NCBI GenBank assembly: GCA_947501005.1
Contig: CANMTU010000001.1
Coordinates: 954,501-1,018,500, forward strand
Source of the DNA: an uncultured Erythrobacter sp.
GTDB lineage: Bacteria; Pseudomonadota; Alphaproteobacteria; Sphingomonadales; Sphingomonadaceae
DNA length: 64,000 nucleotides
Reading direction: 5' to 3'
The notes beneath the pieces were generated by a model that did no database searches, was not told the origin of the DNA, and worked only from the letters and a program-made list of their open reading frames with translations. The translations under genes were made by a program, and so were the position numbers. Below, piece by piece: positions 49,673 through 60,683 of the stretch (position 1 is its first letter; each line of letters begins with the position of its first letter).

Positions 49673-52636
49673 ATGGCATTAACCAAGATTTCCGTGCGGG
49701 GCGCCCGCGAACACAACCTCAAGGGCGTCGATATCGACTTGCCGCGCGACAGTCTGATCGTGATCACCGGCCTCAGCGGGAGCGGCAAGTCCAGCCTCGC
49801 CTTCGACACCATCTATGCCGAGGGGCAGCGGCGCTATGTGGAGTCGCTCAGCGCCTATGCGCGCCAGTTTCTCGAGATGATGCAGAAGCCCGATGTCGAA
49901 CATATCGACGGCCTCTCGCCCGCCATCTCGATCGAGCAGAAGACCACCAGCCGCAATCCGCGTTCGACCGTGGCGACCGTCACCGAAATTTACGACTACA
50001 TGCGCCTGCTGTGGGCGCGGGTCGGCGTGCCCTATTCCCCTGCCACCGGCCTGCCGATCGAGGCGCAGACCGTTTCCAACATGGTGGACCGGGTGATGGC
50101 GCTGCCCGAAGGCACCCGCCTCTATCTGCTTGCCCCGGTCGTGCGCGCGCGCAAGGGCGAGTATCGCCGCGAACTGGCCGAATGGCAAAAGGCCGGTTTC
50201 ACCCGCGTGCGGATCGACGGCGAGATGTATCCGATCGAGGAAGCCCCCGCGCTCGACAAGAAACTGAAGCATGACATCGAGGTCGTGGTGGACCGGCTGG
50301 CGGTGAAACCCGAACTGGAAACCCGGCTGGCCGACAGTTTCGAACAGGCGCTCAAACTGGCCGACGGGCTCGCCTATGTCGATCTGGCCGACACCACCGT
50401 TGCCGAGGCACTGGCCGACCGGCAGGATGTGCGCCCCGCCGTGATTGGGCCGGACAGCGGGAAGGGCGGCGCCATGAAGGGCGCAGGCCTGCCCGATAAT
50501 CGCATCGTCTTTTCCGAACGCTTCTCATGCCCCGTCAGCGGCTTCACCATCGAGGAGGTCGAGCCGCGCCTGTTCTCGTTCAACGCGCCCCAGGGCGCCT
50601 GCCCGACCTGCGACGGCATCGGCGAAAAGCAGCTGTTCGACCCGCAACTGGTCGTCCCCAACGAAGCGCTGAGCCTGAAGAAAGGCGCCGTGGTCCCTTG
50701 GGCCAAGAGCAATCCGCCGTCGCCCTATTACATGCAGGTCCTCTCCAGCCTGGCGGCCGAATTCGGTTTCGACCTGACGACGCCGTGGGAGGACCTGACG
50801 CCCGAACAACGCGACACCATCCTGCACGGCACCAAGGGCAAGTCAGTCCCGCTCACCTTCAAGGACGGGCGCAAGCAATACACCGTGCACAAGGCGTTCG
50901 AAGGCGTGATCGGCAACCTCAACCGCCGCATGCTCCAGACCGAAAGCGCCTGGATGCGCGAGGAACTGGCCAAGTACCAGACCGCGCAGCCTTGCGAGAC
51001 CTGCCACGGCAAGCGTCTCAACGAAAAGGCGCTGGCGGTGAAGATCGCCGGGACCGACATCGCCACGCCCACCCAGATGAGCGTTGCCGATGCCAAGGCC
51101 TATTTTCTCGACCTGCCGGAGAAACTCGGCGCGACGCAGCAGCAGATCGCCCGCGCCATCCTGAAAGAGATAAACGAGCGGCTGGGCTTCCTCGACAATG
51201 TCGGGCTGGATTACCTCAATCTCGACCGCACCAGCGGCACGCTGTCCGGCGGGGAGAGCCAGCGCATCCGCCTCGCCTCGCAGATCGGCAGCGGGTTGTC
51301 AGGCGTGCTCTACGTCCTCGACGAGCCGAGCATCGGCCTCCATCAGCGCGACAACGACCGCCTGCTCGAAACCCTCAAGCGCCTGCGCGATCTCGGCAAC
51401 ACCGTCATTGTGGTGGAACATGACGAGGACGCGATCCGCGCCGCAGACTACGTCGTCGACCTCGGGCCGGGCGCCGGTGTGCATGGGGGCGAGGTCGTTG
51501 CCGAGGGCACGCTGAAGCAGGTGCTGAAATCGAAGAAGTCGCTCACCGCCGACTACCTTACCGGGCGCCGCGCGATCGAAGTGCCGGCCAAGCGCCGCAA
51601 GGGCAACGGCAAGAAGCTCACCGTGCATGGCGCGCGGGCGAACAACCTCAACAACGTCACCGCCAGCCTGCCGCTCGGCACCTTCACCTGCGTCACCGGG
51701 GTCAGCGGGTCGGGCAAGTCGTCCTTCACCATCGACACGCTCTACGCCGCCGCCGCCCGCACGCTGAACGGCGCGCGGATCGTGGCGGGCGCGCACGACA
51801 AGGTCACCGGCCTCGAACATTGCGACAAGGTGATCGAGATCGACCAGTCCCCCATCGGCCGCACCCCGCGATCGAACCCCGCCACCTATACCGGCGCCTT
51901 CACCCAGATCCGCGACTGGTTCGCCGGCCTGCCCGAAAGCCAGGCGCGCGGCTACAAGCCGGGCCGCTTCAGCTTCAACGTCAAGGGCGGGCGGTGCGAG
52001 GCGTGCCAGGGCGACGGCCTCATCAAGATCGAGATGCACTTCCTCCCCGACGTCTACGTCACCTGCGAGGAATGCGGCGGCAAGCGCTACAACCGCGAGA
52101 CGCTGGAGGTGCGCTTCAAGGGCCTCTCCATTGCCGACGTGCTCGACATGACGATCGAGGACGCGGAGGAGTTCTTCAAGGCCGTCCCCCCCATCCGCGA
52201 CAAGATGCACATGCTCAACGAGGTGGGGCTGAGCTACGTCAAGGTCGGCCAGCAGGCGACCACGCTGTCGGGCGGCGAGGCGCAGCGGGTGAAGCTCGCC
52301 AAGGAACTTGCCCGCCGCAGCACGGGGCAGACGCTCTACATCCTCGACGAGCCGACCACCGGCCTGCATTTCGAGGACGTGCGCAAACTGCTCGAAGTGC
52401 TGCACCGGCTGGTGGAGCAGGGCAATTCCGTGGTGGTGATCGAACACAATCTCGACGTCATCAAGACCGCCGACTACGTGCTCGACCTGGGGCCGGGCGG
52501 CGGCGTGCGCGGCGGCGAGATCGTGGCGCAGGGCACGCCGGAAGAGGTGGTCGAGGTGGCGGAGAGCTTTACCGGGCACTACCTCAAGCCGCTGCTGGCG
52601 AGGAGCGCGGAGCGGCAGCGGGAGGCGGCGGAGTAA
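49673..52636 (+). CDS. uvrA: Excinuclease ABC subunit A
   Basis: UvrA recognises bulky DNA lesions for nucleotide-excision repair with UvrB and UvrC. The 987-residue product has two ABC ATPase halves: Walker [10 protein letters not shown] at 33-41 and GVSGSGKSS from about 676. Zinc-binding CxxC pairs (CPTCDG, CETCHG in the first half; CEACQG and CEECGG in the second), two signature motifs ([16 protein letters not shown]) and both Walker B segments ([14 protein letters not shown]) are present. ATG 49673 is supported by [16 protein letters not shown]. Confidence 0.98.
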
Positions 52637-52699
52637 TTTCTGATGAGGCTTAGTGAGTTTGACAAGGCTACATGTCAACTTTCATTCAAGGTAGGTAGA

Positions 52700-54319
52700 A
52701 TGATGACAAACCAGATACTGGCTAATGTAAATGTCCCTACGGTCGACCGTCACATTCTGCTGCCGATCCAAACATCTCGCCCTCTTTATGTCTTCGGAAG
52801 AAACGGAAGCGGAAAATCTTCCTTAGTTCATCATATAGTCCAGCAGTTGCCAAGATCAATTTATATTCCCGGTTCTAGACCAAGTTATTTCGACAATGAT
52901 AGCTTACATTTGACGCCGGCAACTCGAAGGCAAATGGAGGATAGTTGGGTTAGCTGGGATCGGCAGCCACAGACAAGATACCGCCCCATCAACGGAACGC
53001 AACGTAATGAACGTGCCATTCTTGATCTTCAACAGGCGGAAACACAATTCAAAGTCGATGCCGCAAACGAAATAAAGGCGCAAGGTGAAACCTCATCTGC
53101 TATAAGGCGCCTTCAGACCGCCACATCTCCCTTCGATCGTGTAAACACTTTGTTACGACAAGCGAATTTACCAGTTTCGATTTTAATGCAAGATGGTGAG
53201 TTGGTTGCCAGACGAGATGGTGGTGCATACAGCATCGCACGAATGTCCGATGGCGAGCGGACTGCTTTGGTTTTAGCTGCGGAAATTGTTTGTGCACCTA
53301 GTGCTTCAATATTCGTGATAGATGAGCCAGAGTTACATTTACATAAATCAATAGTAGTACCTCTTATCGCGGCCCTAATAGCAGAAAGGACAGACTGTGC
53401 ATTTGTGATTAGTACTCATGAGCTTGAATTACCTAGCCACAGTTTAACGGGGTCAGCCGTAATAACTCGTGGATGTCAATGGAACGGAGATCTTGTTCGC
53501 TCTTGGCAAGCCGATTATGTGACCGAACTTGGTGAGGTTCCCGAGAATTTGCGAGTTGACGTGCTCGGTTCGCGTACGAGAATCGTCTTTGTAGAAGGTG
53601 AGGAAAGTAGTCTCGATCAACCTTTCTACGCTCTGTTATTTCCGAACGTTTCTGTTCGTGCGAGAAATAGTGCTAGAGAGGTAAAGGAGGCTGTACGATC
53701 CTTAAATCAAATTTTTTCAATTCATCATGCTGAGCCGTTTGGCATAATTGATAATGATGGACTCGATAAAGACGAAATTTCAGCGTTAAAGCAGGAAAAC
53801 ATCTTTCCGCTAAGTTATGGTACAATAGAATCCTTCTACTACGGTGAAGAATGCCTAAGGGCGGTAGCCGCAGTGCAATCTCAAACTTTTGGAACGGAAG
53901 CAGTAGAGTTGTTTTCCGCCGCTAATGCAGCGGCATTAGCCTGTCTAGATAACGACCAGACCAAGACACATCTAGCACTGCGTGTTGCAGAGCAAAGCCT
54001 TAGAAACGAGATACTCAAACAGATCCCCACAAGGGCTGAATTGCAAAATCCAAAATCGGCAGAGGTCGCAATTCAGTTGAGTTCCCTTTACTCTGATGCT
54101 CGTAGCAACTTGGATCAACATATCAGAGACGAAGACATAAAGAGCATTATTGCGCGGTTTCCCATACGTGAAACTCGACTCCTAGATACGATTGCGATCA
54201 ACTTGAAGTTTAGAGGGCGTAGAGATTACGAAGCTGCCGTACTGGCGCGTATTGCGAATGATGAAAGTCTTAGGAACGCGCTGCGAGCTAAACTAGGAGA
54301 TTTGTCTGATAAACTCTGA
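52700..54319 (+). CDS. ABC-type ATPase fused to a TOPRIM/DUF4435-like domain (PARIS/OLD-like defence candidate)
   Basis: From ATG 52700 the product is 539 residues (ATG 52643 would add 19). An AAGGTAGG lies 4-7 bases before the tandem ATGs 52700/52703. N-terminal ATPase: Walker A GRNGSGKSS at 33-41, signature MSDGER at 182-187, Walker B FVIDEPE near 205-211 and switch His in STHE. A C-terminal region from about 295 has IVFVEGEE, GIIDNDGLD and PLSYGTIES, the Glu...DxD...E pattern of TOPRIM/DUF4435 domains. This architecture fits a merged AriA-AriB (PARIS) or a class of OLD nuclease. The gene is clearly AT-richer than its neighbours (26/60 G+C counted at 53341-53400 versus 39/60 at 52321-52380 in uvrA) and uses TTA, AGA and ATA codons, so it was probably acquired by transfer. 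Confidence 0.7.
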   Translation: MMTNQILANVNVPTVDRHILLPIQTSRPLYVFGRNGSGKSSLVHHIVQQLPRSIYIPGSRPSYFDNDSLHLTPATRRQMEDSWVSWDRQPQTRYRPINGTQRNERAILDLQQAETQFKVDAANEIKAQGETSSAIRRLQTATSPFDRVNTLLRQANLPVSILMQDGELVARRDGGAYSIARMSDGERTALVLAAEIVCAPSASIFVIDEPELHLHKSIVVPLIAALIAERTDCAFVISTHELELPSHSLTGSAVITRGCQWNGDLVRSWQADYVTELGEVPENLRVDVLGSRTRIVFVEGEESSLDQPFYALLFPNVSVRARNSAREVKEAVRSLNQIFSIHHAEPFGIIDNDGLDKDEISALKQENIFPLSYGTIESFYYGEECLRAVAAVQSQTFGTEAVELFSAANAAALACLDNDQTKTHLALRVAEQSLRNEILKQIPTRAELQNPKSAEVAIQLSSLYSDARSNLDQHIRDEDIKSIIARFPIRETRLLDTIAINLKFRGRRDYEAAVLARIANDESLRNALRAKLGDLSDKL

Positions 54320-54392
54320 ATTATCAGATCTTTCCTACAGTGACCCGGGGCCATAAGCGATCAGGTCCTTGCTTCATTAAAGCTGCCGGACC

Positions 54393-55289
54393 ATGAACGC
54401 CCTCACCCCCCTCGACACCTCCGCTCCCGCCGAGCCGCACACCGTCTTCTCCCCCAAGCGGCAGGCCGAGTTCCTGCAGAGCCTTCAGCTGTTCGGCAAT
54501 GTCCGGCTCGCGGCGCGGGCGGCGCGGGTGTCGGCGCAGACGGCGTATCGGACGCGGCGGGGCTCGGCGGCGTTTGCGCGGGCGTGGGACAGCGCGCTGC
54601 TCGCGGCGCGGGACCAGGCCGAGCAGGTGCTAGCCGACCGGGCGCTCAACGGGTGGGAGGAGGCGGTGTTCTATCATGGCGAGGAGGTGGCGCGGCGGCG
54701 GCGCTATTCCGACCGCCTGCTGCTCGCGCATCTCGCGCGGCTCGACCGGCTGGAGGCCCGCCCCGAAATCGCCGCCGGTCTCGCCACGCTGGACGCCGCG
54801 ATCGCCGGCCTGTCGCGCGGCGAGGCGCTGCCGGAACCGGATTTGCATGAGGAGCGTGTTCCACCCGTTCCATCGCGTAGGATGCCGGGCGGGCCAGTCC
54901 TCCCCGCGTCCAACACCGGCGAGGAGGCGCCCGACGAGGACGCGGACGGCTGGCTGGAGGACGAGGGCGGGGCGCTGATAGATCCGCTGAACGATCAGTT
55001 CTGGCCCGGCTCTTACGCGCGGCGCATCCCGCCCGCCGGCTATCCCGAATGGGAGGCGGACATGGACGATCCGGCGCATTGGGTGAACGGCGCTTATATC
55101 CCGCCGCTCGGCCGCGCGCTGCGTGCGATGGAGGCGGCCCGCCCGCGCGGCGCCCTCCTGCCCCTGCAACTGGGCGGCAACAATGCGGAGGCGGTGCAGC
55201 TGGCGGCGTTCGAGGCCGGGCTGCCCGAATGGTGGCTCATCGCCAGCGAGGATGCGCTGGATGCCGCGCTGGATGCGGCGGCGGGGTAG
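54393..55289 (+). CDS. Hypothetical protein with N-terminal helix-turn-helix-like region
   Basis: The 298-residue product has VFSPKRQAEFLQSLQLFGNVRLAARAARVSAQTAYRTRR in the first 60 residues, resembling the homeodomain-like DNA-binding start of phage terminase small subunits and related regulators. The rest is acidic, Pro/Ala-rich and without a recognised domain. Codon use returns to the GC-rich background here. The 73-base gap from the preceding gene has AT-rich left and GC-rich right halves. Not a phage gene by context. Confidence 0.55.
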   Translation: MNALTPLDTSAPAEPHTVFSPKRQAEFLQSLQLFGNVRLAARAARVSAQTAYRTRRGSAAFARAWDSALLAARDQAEQVLADRALNGWEEAVFYHGEEVARRRRYSDRLLLAHLARLDRLEARPEIAAGLATLDAAIAGLSRGEALPEPDLHEERVPPVPSRRMPGGPVLPASNTGEEAPDEDADGWLEDEGGALIDPLNDQFWPGSYARRIPPAGYPEWEADMDDPAHWVNGAYIPPLGRALRAMEAARPRGALLPLQLGGNNAEAVQLAAFEAGLPEWWLIASEDALDAALDAAAG

Positions 55290-55292
55290 GCC

Positions 55293-55805
55293 TCAGCCCG
55301 CGAGCAGGGCCAGTTCGACCGTGCCCTTGCCACGCGCCACGATGCCGAGATCCTTGGCGGCGGCGCGGCTCACGTCGATCAGGCGGCTGTCGTGGAACGG
55401 CCCGCGATCGTTGATCCGCACGACCACCGAGGCGCCGGTGCGCGGATTGGTCACCCGCACGCGGCTGCCGAAGGGCAGGGTGCGGTGTGCGGCGGTGTAG
55501 CCGTTCATGTCGAACCGCTCGCCACTGGCGGTGGGGCGACCGTGGAACTGCTTGCCGTAGAACGAGGCGGTCCCGCTGCCGAGGGCGGTCGCGGCAGGCT
55601 CGGCCTCGACCGGCGGTTCGAACGTGTCGAGGTCCACGACGCCGCGCCCCGGCCGCGGCGCCTCGGGCAGGGCTGCGTAGCGGGAGAACTGCTGCTCGAA
55701 CCCCGGCACGGCAGCGCGCCGCATCGCGTCCTGCGAATGGCCGGCAGTGCTCGGCAAGGCGATGGCTGCGGCAAAAAGCGCCGCGCGCAGCGTGAGATTG
55801 ATCAT
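55293..55805 (-). CDS. rlpA: RlpA-type septal lytic transglycosylase (DPBB domain)
   Basis: RlpA cleaves naked glycan strands, often at the septum. The 170-residue product has a signal peptide (cleavage near TAGHSQ, about residue 25) and a double-psi beta-barrel domain in the C-terminal half: GTASFYGKQFHGRPTASGE, AAHRTLPFGSRVRV and VRINDRGPFHDSRLIDVSRAAA. It has no SPOR domain and no lipobox Cys. The start ATG lies just behind a hairpin that covers the ribosome-binding site. argG lies upstream on the same strand. Confidence 0.85.
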   Translation of the reverse strand: MINLTLRAALFAAAIALPSTAGHSQDAMRRAAVPGFEQQFSRYAALPEAPRPGRGVVDLDTFEPPVEAEPAATALGSGTASFYGKQFHGRPTASGERFDMNGYTAAHRTLPFGSRVRVTNPRTGASVVVRINDRGPFHDSRLIDVSRAAAKDLGIVARGKGTVELALLAG

Positions 55806-57166: not shown

Positions 57167-57317
57167 GCAGGCACCTTTCGTAAGACGGCGCGGCGGCTAG
57201 CAGGGGGCGAGGGCGTAGGCAAACGCGAAGCGGTTGGCCGGCACCAAGCGCGTCTTCGTCTACCCAAGGAAACCTTTGGGGCGGTCGCGCGCTGACTCGG
57301 GCAGCAAGGAGAACCCG

Positions 57318-58160
57318 ATGGCCGCACGCGCATATTGGCAGGGACAGATCAGGCTCGCCCTGGTCAGCATTCCGGTCGAGATCTATTCGGCCACCAAGAC
57401 CGGGTCGAAGATCAGCTTCAACCAGATACACGAACCCTCGGGCAAACGCGTATCCTATGAAAAGGTCGTCTCCGGCATCGGCCCGATCGATCGGGACGAC
57501 ATCATCAAGGGCTACGAAATTTCCAAGGGCAATTACGTCCTTTTGGAAGAGGAAGAGATCGAGGCGGTAAAGGTCGAGAGCAAGCGGACGCTGGAACTGG
57601 TCCAGTTCGTCGACGCGAGCGAGATCGATCCGCTCTATTACGAGAAACCCTATTACGTCGCGCCGAAGGACGAGCTGGCGGAAGAAGCCTTCGTCGTGCT
57701 GCGCGAGGCGCTGCGCAAGGCAGGCAAGATCGGCCTCGGGCAATTGTCGGTCCGCGGGCAGGAGAAGCTGGTCGCGCTGAAGCCGTGCGGCAAGGGGCTG
57801 CTGCTCGAAACGCTCCGCTATGCCGACGAGGTGCGCAAGGGGCAGGCGTTCTTCTCCGAGATCGAGGAAAGCAAGCCGGACAAGGAATTGCTCGAACTCG
57901 CGACCACGCTGATCGACAAAAAGACCGCCCCGTTCGATGCGAGCGAGTTCGAGGATCGCTATGTCGAGGCGCTGCGCAAGCTGATCGACAAGAAGGCCAA
58001 GTCGAAGAGCGACAAGCTGGTGCTGGAGGATGTGGACGAGCCGGAGGGCGGCAAGTCCGGCAATGTCATCGATCTGATGGCGGCGCTGAAGAAATCGGTC
58101 GGCAGCGAGAAGGACGGCGCGGCCAAGAAGGCGCCCGCCCGCAAGAAGAAATCCGCCTGA
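57318..58160 (+). CDS. ku: Non-homologous end-joining protein Ku
   Basis: Bacterial Ku binds double-strand breaks and recruits LigD. The 280-residue product begins MAARAYWQGQIRLALVSIPVEIYSA and has the core beta-barrel segments KISFNQIHEPSGKRVSYEK, YYVAPKDELAEEAFVVL and a Lys-rich C-terminus. ATG 57318 follows AAGGAG. ligD starts 3 bases later, a two-gene repair operon. Confidence 0.96.
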   Translation: MAARAYWQGQIRLALVSIPVEIYSATKTGSKISFNQIHEPSGKRVSYEKVVSGIGPIDRDDIIKGYEISKGNYVLLEEEEIEAVKVESKRTLELVQFVDASEIDPLYYEKPYYVAPKDELAEEAFVVLREALRKAGKIGLGQLSVRGQEKLVALKPCGKGLLLETLRYADEVRKGQAFFSEIEESKPDKELLELATTLIDKKTAPFDASEFEDRYVEALRKLIDKKAKSKSDKLVLEDVDEPEGGKSGNVIDLMAALKKSVGSEKDGAAKKAPARKKKSA

Positions 58161-58163
58161 CCC

Positions 58164-60683
58164 ATGGCCCGCTCCGATCCCCTCGCAACCTACAATGCCA
58201 AGCGCGACTTCAAGAAGACGCCCGAACCGGCGGGCCAGGCGACGGCGAGCGAGACCGGTGACCTCTTCATCGTCCAGAAGCACGATGCGACCCGGCTGCA
58301 CTGGGACCTGCGGCTGGAGGTCGACGGGGTCCTGAAAAGCTGGGCGGTGACCAAGGGGCCCTCGCCCGATCCCGATATCAAACGGCTGGCGGTGCGGACC
58401 GAGGATCACCCGATGTCCTATGCCGAGTTCGAGGGCACCATTCCCAAGGGTGAATATGGCGGCGGCACGGTCATGCTGTGGGACCGGGGCAGCTGGGCGC
58501 CGATCGAGGGCAAGAGCGTGAAAGATCTGGAGAAAGGCCACCTCCATTTCACGCTTCAGGGCGAGCGGATGAAGGGCGAATGGCTGCTTATCCGCCTGAA
58601 GAAGAAGCCGGGCGAGAAGCGCGAGAACTGGCTGCTGCGCAAATTGCAGGACGAGCATGCCGAGGAAGGCGATCTGCTCGTTCAGCGCGAGCTGACCAGT
58701 GTGCTGACCCAGCGTTCCATGGCGGAGATCGCGGCGGACAAGAAGGGCGAGTTTCCGCTTGCCGGCAAGAAGGACGACGCGTTCCTTTCGCAGATGGAGA
58801 AGGCGAGCGCGCATAATGCCAAGAAGGCGAAGGCGCCGGGGGGTAAGCGCAAGGCCGCAGCCCTGCCGGAGTTCCGCAAGCCGCAGCTCGCCACGCTGGT
58901 CGACGATGTGCCCGCCGGCAATGGCTGGATGCACGAGATCAAGTTCGACGGATATCGCGCACTGATCGCGGCTAAGGGCAAAGAGGTCCGCGTCTATACC
59001 CGCAGCGGGAAGGACTGGACCGACAAGTTCGGCCCGCTGGTGAATGCGATCGCCGAACTCGACCTGCCGGCGTGCCTGATCGACGGCGAGATCGTGGCTT
59101 ACGATGCTAAGGGCAACCCCGATTTCTCCTCGCTCCAGTCGGTGCTGAAACGCGGCCACGGATCGCAGGCGCAGAGCGACCGCCTTGCCTTTTACGGGTT
59201 CGACCTGCTCGAACTGCAGGGCGAGGATCTGGCGAAGCTGCCCAATATAGAGCGCAAGGAGCGGCTGGAGGCCTTGCTCGGCACGGCGCAGCCGCCAATC
59301 CACGTGGCCGACCATGTGATCGGGGCGGGGGAGAAACTCTATCGCAGCATGTGCGATGCGGGGCAGGAAGGGATCATCTCCAAGACGATCGACGGGCCGT
59401 ATTCCGGCAGCCGGTCGAAACGCTGGGTGAAGGTGAAATGCACCCGGCGGCAGGAATTCGTGATCATCGGCTGGAAGAAATCCTCCGCCAAGGGGCGGCC
59501 GTTCGCATCTCTGCTGATGGCGCAGCACGAGCGGGGCGACCTGGTCTACAAAGGCAATGTCGGCACCGGCTTCACTGCGGACGACCTTGACGACCTTGCT
59601 GCCAAGATGAACCGGCTGGAACGCAAGACGCCGCCGGCGGAGGTCGACAAGGTTTCATCCCGAGGGGTGACGTGGCTGACACCGAAACTGGTCGCCGAGG
59701 TCGCGTTCGCCGAATTCACCGGCGACGGCAATATCCGCCACGGCAGCTATCTCGGCCTGCGCGGCGACAAGCAGGCCAGCGAAGTCAGGCCCGAGACGGC
59801 GGAGGCGGCTCCCGATGAAACGGCCGAGGTCGAGATCACCAGCCGCGACCGGGTGGTGTTTCCCGACAGCGGCCAGACCAAGGGCCAGCTTGCCGATTAT
59901 TACCAGGCTGTCGCCGCGATCATGCTGCCATTCGCAGGCCACCGCCCGATCAGCCTCGTGCGCTGTCCGCAAGGCAGGGCGCGCAAATGCTTCTTTCAGA
60001 AGCACGACAGCGGATCGTTCGGGGACGGGGTGCAGCAGGTCTCCATCGCGGAGAAGGACGGTGGACACGAGGATTATCTGTATGTCGAGGATGCGCGGGG
60101 CCTGCTCCAATGCGTGCAGATGGGCACGATCGAGTTTCACGGCTGGGCCGCCCGCAGCGAGGCGGTGGAACTGCCCGACCGGATGATCTTCGACCTCGAT
60201 CCCGACGAGGGGTTGGACTTCGAGGACGTGAAGACCGCGGCGACCGACATTCGCGACCGGCTGGCCGACATCGGTCTCGTCAGCTTCGCCATGCTGTCCG
60301 GCGGAAAGGGCGTGCACGTCGTGGCCCCCCTGACGCCGGGCCATTCGTGGGAGGCGCACAAGGATTTCTCCCGCCGCTTCGCCGAGGCGCTCTCCCTCGC
60401 CGAACCGGACCGCTTCACCGCCACCATGAGCAAGGCCAAGCGCAAGGGAAAGATCTTCATAGACTGGCTGCGCAACCAGCGCGGCGCGACCGCCGTCGTC
60501 CCTTATTCCGCGCGGGCGCGTGAAGGGGCGCCGGTAGCCGTACCGATCGCCTGGAACGAGTTGAAGGCGATGGACAATGCCAAGCCGTACTCGATCGACG
60601 ACGGCAAGCGCCTGCTCGACCGGGCGCAGAGCAAGGCGCTCGCGGGCTGGGGGTTCGCCAGCCAGACCTTGCCCGACCTCTAG
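58164..60683 (+). CDS. ligD: Multifunctional DNA ligase D
   Basis: LigD processes and seals broken ends with Ku. The 839-residue product has three domains in the order phosphoesterase (1 to about 190; VQKHDATRLHWDLRLE), ATP-dependent ligase (about 240-535; adenylated Lys260 in EIKFDGYRA, IDGEIVAYD) and primase/polymerase (about 550-839; RPISLVRCPQG, IFDLDPDEG, LSGGKGVHVV). The two Asp of the polymerase site are at DLDPD near 678. It overlaps the convergent cfa-like gene by four bases. Confidence 0.96.
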   Translation: MARSDPLATYNAKRDFKKTPEPAGQATASETGDLFIVQKHDATRLHWDLRLEVDGVLKSWAVTKGPSPDPDIKRLAVRTEDHPMSYAEFEGTIPKGEYGGGTVMLWDRGSWAPIEGKSVKDLEKGHLHFTLQGERMKGEWLLIRLKKKPGEKRENWLLRKLQDEHAEEGDLLVQRELTSVLTQRSMAEIAADKKGEFPLAGKKDDAFLSQMEKASAHNAKKAKAPGGKRKAAALPEFRKPQLATLVDDVPAGNGWMHEIKFDGYRALIAAKGKEVRVYTRSGKDWTDKFGPLVNAIAELDLPACLIDGEIVAYDAKGNPDFSSLQSVLKRGHGSQAQSDRLAFYGFDLLELQGEDLAKLPNIERKERLEALLGTAQPPIHVADHVIGAGEKLYRSMCDAGQEGIISKTIDGPYSGSRSKRWVKVKCTRRQEFVIIGWKKSSAKGRPFASLLMAQHERGDLVYKGNVGTGFTADDLDDLAAKMNRLERKTPPAEVDKVSSRGVTWLTPKLVAEVAFAEFTGDGNIRHGSYLGLRGDKQASEVRPETAEAAPDETAEVEITSRDRVVFPDSGQTKGQLADYYQAVAAIMLPFAGHRPISLVRCPQGRARKCFFQKHDSGSFGDGVQQVSIAEKDGGHEDYLYVEDARGLLQCVQMGTIEFHGWAARSEAVELPDRMIFDLDPDEGLDFEDVKTAATDIRDRLADIGLVSFAMLSGGKGVHVVAPLTPGHSWEAHKDFSRRFAEALSLAEPDRFTATMSKAKRKGKIFIDWLRNQRGATAVVPYSARAREGAPVAVPIAWNELKAMDNAKPYSIDDGKRLLDRAQSKALAGWGFASQTLPDL

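Follow-up and report, generated by a model that had tools for sequence, protein, structure and literature searches.

Among described systems, those closest to the gene analysed here are the PARIS defences. In the paper that named the system, they are recognised by an ABC ATPase (AAA_15 or AAA_21) together with DUF4435, encoded either by two neighbouring genes or by one fused gene (PMC9122126). For the two-gene form, published work describes an AriA ring that keeps AriB inactive, triggering by anti-restriction proteins of phages, of which Ocr is an example, and cleavage by AriB of tRNA-Lys(UUU) in its anticodon stem-loop (PMC9122126, PMC12409363, PMC11455837); the tRNA sequence reported for AriB is UAAUC|A (PMC12409363). 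Mutating the ATPase motifs or the acidic residues of the Toprim domain abolished PARIS defence, according to PMC9122126.

We analysed a gene that lies directly behind uvrA in a stretch of 64,000 nucleotides (the window, by which we mean the whole stretch). We consider it very likely that this gene by itself constitutes a PARIS cassette for defence, that it was horizontally acquired into a standing cargo slot, located between the uvrA stop and a gene resembling a terminase small subunit, and that it would act by the steps proposed below. The features on which the argument rests are as follows.

49673 to 52636, + strand: uvrA, which borders the slot on the left (matches to PDB chains of UvrA with E 0; matched in 38 same-genus loci)
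52703 to 54319, + strand: probable single-gene PARIS (AriAB), an AriA-type ABC ATPase with a DUF4435/Toprim nuclease (PADLOC, Pfam, relatives, AriA structure matches)
52703 to 53500, + strand, domain limit approximate: AriA-like ABC ATPase part (invariant motifs, structure match)
53561 to 53840, + strand, limits approximate: predicted DUF4435/Toprim core (invariant acids E298, D305, D350, D352 and E376; predicted secondary structure)
54332 to 54338, + strand: TTCCTAC, start of the conserved right border, a promoter-like block of the next gene ([TG]TCCTAC in 45 of 47 loci)
54393 to 55289, + strand: right-border gene, 298 aa, terminase-small-subunit-like (phrog_4044, 5.4e-25)
55293 to 55805, - strand: rlpA-like core gene right of the slot (Pfam DPBB_1, 2.2e-24)

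Limits, domains and structure of the PARIS-type gene

The frame at 52643-54319 (+ strand) is open over 558 codons without stops, and we refer to its 558-aa translation as the long frame. The gene proper is probably shorter, spanning 52703-54319 and encoding 538 aa, because in the nearest fetched relative (L002) the only possible start aligns with the ATG at 52703. This is the second of two adjacent ATGs (52700/52703); AAGGTAGG precedes it, and the leader between it and the uvrA stop (52634-52636) is 66 nt long. The initial annotation had given the extent as 52640-54340; the gene is intact, with a probable start at 52703 and its end at 54319. The composition of the gene (GC 0.45, GC3 0.38) compared with that of the next gene to the right (0.73 and 0.87) agrees with the earlier view that a low-GC, foreign gene stands behind uvrA. 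The kilobase 53001-54000 has a GC of 0.452, and all other kilobases of the window have at least 0.59.

The PADLOC profile AriAB matches residues 188-551 of the long frame with an E-value of 3.4e-55, and the second-best PADLOC profile reaches 5e-13. Pfam finds the ABC ATPase AAA_21 (3.9e-11) and, at residues 314-410 of the long frame, DUF4435 (4.2e-5), the latter with 23.9 bits, which is below the curated cut-off of 27 bits. With this qualification on DUF4435, both domains used to recognise PARIS occur in one ORF, and the matches uphold the proposal of a stand-alone ATPase-DUF4435/Toprim fusion of PARIS type. It had also been proposed that the system is undescribed or divergent. We rejected this proposal: single-gene fusions of AAA_21 and DUF4435 are already present in the PARIS-naming paper (PMC9122126), and PADLOC has a profile for them. 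Judged from its sequence, the gene is a single-gene PARIS, which is a form already published.

Conserved residues were read from an alignment of 21 sequences, consisting of the window protein, 18 proteins from IMG/VR, one from Asticcacaulis and one from Streptococcus, with residues counted from the start at 52703. In the ATPase part, G32, G35, G37, K38, SDGE at 182-185, DEPE at 207-210, H212 and H239 are invariant in all 21; we take G32-K38 to be the Walker A motif, SDGE to be the signature and DEPE to be Walker B. The acids of the nuclease part (E298, D305, D350, D352 and E376) are likewise invariant in 21 of 21.

A structure model derived from this alignment has a mean pLDDT of 86.2, and replaced an earlier, weak model built from 3 sequences (pLDDT 63.5). 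Its secondary structure consists of a strand at 293-298, a helix at 305-312, a strand at 317-321, a helix at 324-336, a strand at 344-350, a helix at 356-364 and a strand at 367-370, and this predicted order around the conserved acids fits a Toprim domain. The ATPase part resembles the AriA chains 8ux9_B (VIA-align; Z 14.8, rmsd 3.5, 228 residues) and 8v46_B (Z 14.7), which are tied with PtuA and retron ATPases; because PtuA ATPases match as well as AriA chains, the AriA fold match is not specific. The matches of the structure search mainly span residues 1-341, and neither AriB nor any other Toprim nuclease appears as a separate entry, as the lists were filled by ATPase matches that left the Toprim part barely probed. 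The Toprim fold that had been anticipated is compatible with the strand and helix order of the model, and is unconfirmed by the structure search for that part of the protein. Profile comparison with the AriA-like protein of L116 (a locus described below) gave a probability of 94%, in the ATPase motifs only, and comparison with the short L116 AriB, entered as a single sequence, gave no match.

It is important to consider related nucleases with a similar architecture. GajA and OLD also carry a Toprim domain. If the gene encoded an OLD-type or Gabija-type (GajA) ATPase-Toprim nuclease, the protein would cut DNA instead of tRNA. The domain order, with an ABC ATPase followed by Toprim, is shared (Toprim in OLD nucleases is mentioned in PMC12409363), GajA profiles match the ATPase part with 1.1e-6 at best, and GajA chains occur in the Foldseek lists of both models, while an OLD chain occurs in the list obtained with the earlier, weak model. 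However, the E-value of AriAB is lower than that of any GajA profile by over 40 orders of magnitude, the Pfam domain OLD-like_TOPRIM (PF20469) has no match up to E=1 although the same library finds it in the cargo of L060 and L061, and there is no GajB helicase gene among the neighbours examined (UvrA, TerS-like, RlpA-like, ArgG). We therefore rejected an OLD or Gabija identity on the profiles and regard it as very unlikely, so that the membership in OLD initially considered does not hold. A different possibility is that this PARIS-like fusion has lost its role in defence and is a decaying or domesticated copy. Its occurrence in one of the 25 same-genus genomes sampled would be compatible with this idea, but the frame is open without stops and the catalytic residues are all retained, and we give such a copy only a slight chance.

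Relatives and proposed working of the fused protein

A search at E<=0.001 of 40 sampled genomes, 24 from the same genus and 16 from the same order, gave no match to the protein. The gene is accordingly not present in all relatives, a state that would have counted against the initial interpretation. Across the class, 5 of 385 genomes match at E<=1e-15, the gene's own genome included. The nearest relatives, with 46-48% identity, are from Asticcacaulis and two IMG/VR contigs. In the IMG/VR viral contigs, a search started from the protein alone gave no close relatives, and one started from the alignment gave 23 loci, 18 of which were taken into the alignment. Among phage records, the matches are two entries of one Oenococcus phage, over 38% of the query.

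Relatives also occur in 48 plasmid records, in 25 of these over at least 80% of the query, and those on small plasmids of E. coli and Salmonella are 28-29% identical. For two such plasmids (E. coli and Salmonella; L082 and L083), no AriB gene is listed beside the relative in the PLSDB tables, which are incomplete and include hypothetical proteins; this suggests that the one-gene form is self-contained. The Salmonella plasmid that carries a relative of one-gene PARIS also lists a gene of the ToxN/AbiQ family.

In L116, a locus of another genus, the same slot contains neighbouring AriA-like (L116:5969-7123, + strand) and AriB-like (L116:7059-7838, + strand) genes. The former matches the AriA profile with 6.3e-26, with PtuA profiles near at 4.9e-22, and the latter matches the AriB profile with 1.3e-8 over 87 of 236 profile positions. 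On these profile matches, L116 holds a probable two-gene PARIS in the slot.

With the two-gene PARIS of E. coli as a guide, the following working of the fused protein can be proposed. The N-terminal ABC ATPase, which by its sequence retains the ATPase motifs, would self-assemble and in doing so hold the C-terminal Toprim nuclease off. A phage anti-restriction protein that mimics DNA would then bind the ATPase ring and cause it to switch, and the nuclease would cut a host tRNA, most likely tRNA-Lys(UUU), such that translation would stop and no phage would be produced. Since sensor and nuclease are one chain, release of the nuclease is impossible, and we infer that activation would be a rearrangement inside the complex. 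The tRNA-Lys(UUU) of the host retains UAAUC|A, so the substrate exists in this host, and cleavage of this tRNA by the fused protein would be expected by analogy. Because even the nearest relatives found are only 46-48% identical, the trigger and the tRNA target may differ from those of known PARIS. An additional point is that the genome has two N6_Mtase matches over the cut-off; the host may consequently have restriction that phages need to block, with PARIS serving as a back-up. We believe that the function of the gene can be predicted with good confidence.

The slot behind uvrA and its cargo

We examined the sequence behind uvrA in 38 loci of the genus, among them that of the window, and in 40 loci from further genera of the family, each genus being represented once. 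The same-genus loci derive from 41 genomes (own included), three of which lack a usable uvrA match (G006, G013 and G045), and the others were fetched from among 54 further genomes with uvrA. Counts for the slot leave out loci without a recognised right-hand gene, which are 3 of the 38 same-genus and 17 of the 40 other-genus loci, and for these 17 the slot is not established.

The gene order uvrA, cargo, terminase-small-subunit-like gene, rlpA and argG is widely common to the loci. The right side was recognised in 35 same-genus loci (own included); 34 of them have an insert of at least 1 kb behind uvrA, and 32 of these inserts contain a low-GC stretch (500 bases with less than 52% GC), compared to 4 of 34 for the control, 2.6 kb beyond argG. 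In other genera, such an insert is present in 22 of the 23 loci with a recognised right side and 21 are low in GC, compared to 0 of 3 for the control. Between uvrA and rlpA/argG, 30 of 35 same-genus and 20 of 23 other-genus loci contain a sequence that matches the terminase-like gene in full or in part; in one further same-genus locus (L072), the match is situated beyond argG and is not counted. In the two short loci L056 and L100, uvrA is joined almost directly to rlpA and the terminase-like gene is absent, so that the empty state is one without cargo and also without this gene. The genome with the most similar uvrA (G010, 93%) has in its slot an unrelated gene of 842 aa in the opposite direction, with a weak STAND-NTPase match below the cut-off. 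Conserved flanks with differing cargo in related genomes, by which hotspots are recognised, are therefore found behind uvrA.

These comparisons modify the initial description of a gene that stands alone directly behind uvrA without an integrase. The adjacency is correct, and no integrase is present among the neighbours examined (UvrA, terminase-small-subunit-like, RlpA-like and ArgG), but the gene is not a lone island, as the site is a shared variable slot. No tRNA was found in the window using ARAGORN. Further neighbours, identified by sequence, are Ku and LigD. Among the 38 loci, only those of the window genome, G010 and G009 have Ku and LigD (window 57234-60683) after argG within the fetched stretch, and there may be a second variable site in this region. 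The terminase-small-subunit-like protein has no Pfam match, and the genome contains one weaker second match to it (41%).

Cargo ORFs of low GC were called mechanically (GC <0.56, at least 120 aa), with loci lacking a recognised right side included, so that some ORFs may lie outside the slot; the resulting 107 ORFs from 62 loci form 95 clusters, of which 85 are single. From 50 same-genus cargo proteins that had been prepared, we chose 30, from 29 genomes, by low GC and length, and scanned these with Pfam and PADLOC. The cargo includes reverse transcriptases of the defence groups UG13a (L042) and UG17 (L054), a TIR protein (L043), a dCTP deaminase (L044), a DndC-like protein (L046), AbiL with RloB (L049), AbiU (L053), a beta protein (L055), OLD-like ATPases (L060 and L061), a GmrSD-type protein (L063), an FRG protein (L067), an MT-A70 methylase (L074) and a dGTPase (L075). 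Neither Pfam nor PADLOC gave a match for the cargo of L040, L048/L066, L052, L059 and L069, and PADLOC gave none for that of L101. An additional 10 cargo proteins from other genera were picked by eye and are not a sample. Three species (L041, L050 and L057) share a low-GC gene pair in the slot that by eye resembles an autoinducer-binding regulator and a receiver domain, and is not defence-like.

At least half of a PADLOC profile is covered for 14 of the 30 cargo proteins and for 0 of 10 control genes located beyond argG. By the bare criterion of a match at E<=1e-5, 17 of the 30 cargo proteins have a PADLOC match and 13 have none. However, 5 of the 10 controls match mad2, a methylase-like profile, at this threshold, each over at most 35% of the profile, and a bare E-value would therefore overstate the enrichment. 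We dropped bare E-values for this reason, and the rule on coverage was set after the control matches had been seen. With the caveats that this rule is post hoc and that the cargo was picked by low GC, the cargo is likely enriched in defence genes.

Borders of the slot and movement of cargo

Following the uvrA stop, cargo or unshared sequence often begins at once. Behind uvrA, extra degenerate copies of its 3' end are present in 9 of the 38 same-genus loci, where a score of at least 20 was required and the maxima of five shuffles each were at most 16, and in 4 of the 40 other-genus loci. The nine same-genus remnants are 54-150 nt long and 71-92% identical; the copy in L046, with 150 bases and 92% identity, is located roughly 500 bases behind uvrA and just before the cargo gene. 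In the case of the PARIS gene, no repeat pairs its two ends and no uvrA-end repeat flanks it, and we consequently rejected flanking repeats as its attachment sites.

On the right side, the start of the border gene could be recognised in 47 loci; in 45 of these, [TG]TCCTAC is found in the slot on the + strand, and in 6 of the 47 on the other strand. It is often followed by an ATAACT-like stretch and the inverted pair GGTTCAC/GTGAACC ahead of the ATG (window 54332-54392), and this block could be a regulated promoter, as read by eye, or a recombination border. Five loci (L042, L044, L053, L054 and L069) have two right-border motif sites in a row. Given the uvrA-end copies on the left and the repeated motifs on the right, donor DNA appears to bring its own border piece at both ends.

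We also compared third codon positions in the flanking genes. Within the genus, the difference in uvrA is 0.09-0.14 at 150-270 codons before its end and 0.18-0.37 in windows outside that stretch, a fall to between about a third and a half of the usual value, while argG, at 0.26-0.38, has no such dip. Between genera, the corresponding values for uvrA are 0.22-0.27 and 0.33-0.43; about half of the dip is thus retained, so that much of it may be due to constraint on codons. The last 60 codons of uvrA, at 0.33-0.37, are among the most different.

Two explanations of how the slot is filled should be weighed against each other. One is ordinary homologous recombination in the core genes, where the donor DNA would carry, besides the cargo, parts of uvrA and parts of the right-border gene. 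The border pieces repeated on both sides, i.e., the uvrA ends and the right-border motifs of the five loci mentioned above, are in favour of this explanation, as is the dip in uvrA that argG lacks. Against it, constraint may account for much of a dip that persists by about half between genera, and the end of uvrA is among its most different parts instead of among the most alike. The diversity test in uvrA is accordingly suggestive, leaning toward recombination with about half of its signal explained by constraint, and we see the chances of this explanation as roughly even. The other explanation is an island made by an integrase at an attachment site in the 3' end of uvrA, where the integrase acts in trans or has been lost. 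Many loci do diverge straight after the uvrA stop, and the extra uvrA 3' ends (9 of 38 and 4 of 40) are what would be expected if an element carried its own gene end. However, the Pfam scan of 30 cargo proteins revealed no recombinase, the PARIS gene has no flanking uvrA-end repeat, and the nine remnants, given their lengths and divergence, are not a short exact core; we think an integrase-made island rather unlikely. An ORF in L064, outside the scanned set, is transposase-like by eye.

A more speculative proposal, which we put forward tentatively and hold to be less likely than not, is that the region behind uvrA serves this family as a site at which single defence cassettes are exchanged without an integrase. 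Each cassette would bring a uvrA 3' end of its own, perhaps in packaged or circular form, and the terminase-small-subunit-like gene, which is usually present at the right border, would have a part in moving or keeping the cassettes. If this is true, the cargo that belongs to no known family (L040, L048/L066, L052, L059, L069 and L101) would largely consist of undiscovered defence systems, and the slot would be a ready source for finding new ones.

Comparison with known systems

The gene itself is one more fused PARIS, of a type that is already known. Its fused form is of use as a natural experiment, in that AriB dissociates from AriA in the two-gene model, and a single chain does not permit this. 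The slot matters more than the gene: it is one address, found via uvrA, with differing foreign cargo in nearly every sampled species. It yields a short list of unnamed genes for defence testing and is well suited to studying the movement of defence genes that lack their own integrase.

Compared with the single-gene AriAB form of PARIS (Rousset et al. 2022, PMC9122126), the gene has the same AAA_21-type ATPase and DUF4435/Toprim in one chain, the same motifs and the same sporadic spread, and it also stands alone; it differs in being 46-48% identical to the nearest relatives found and in its location in a uvrA-linked slot. With the two-gene AriA and AriB (8ux9, 8v46) it shares the ATPase fold and the pattern of acidic residues in the nuclease, whereas its single chain means that activation cannot consist in AriB being released. 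OLD, GajA and the PtuA of Septu and retrons have a related ABC ATPase head, but the Toprim of the present protein is of the DUF4435 type, and neither GajB nor PtuB is among the neighbours examined.

For the uvrA-linked slot, we found no description among the papers listed in searches of the open-licence literature; those that contain the word uvrA (PMC13373217, PMC9608740, PMC3710099 and PMC12892991) and one about a Pectobacterium phage (PMC5377504) concern different topics, judging by their titles. We regard the slot as a hotspot of a kind already known, but its borders are unusual and we did not find them in print. The defence hotspots of E. coli (PMC10121019) and P. aeruginosa (PMC10250203) likewise have conserved flanks and a changing cargo, which in those hotspots is rich in defence genes and is likely so here. 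In comparison with these, the borders here are uvrA and a terminase-small-subunit-like gene, the cargo is usually one or two genes, and no integrase was seen in the cargo scanned.
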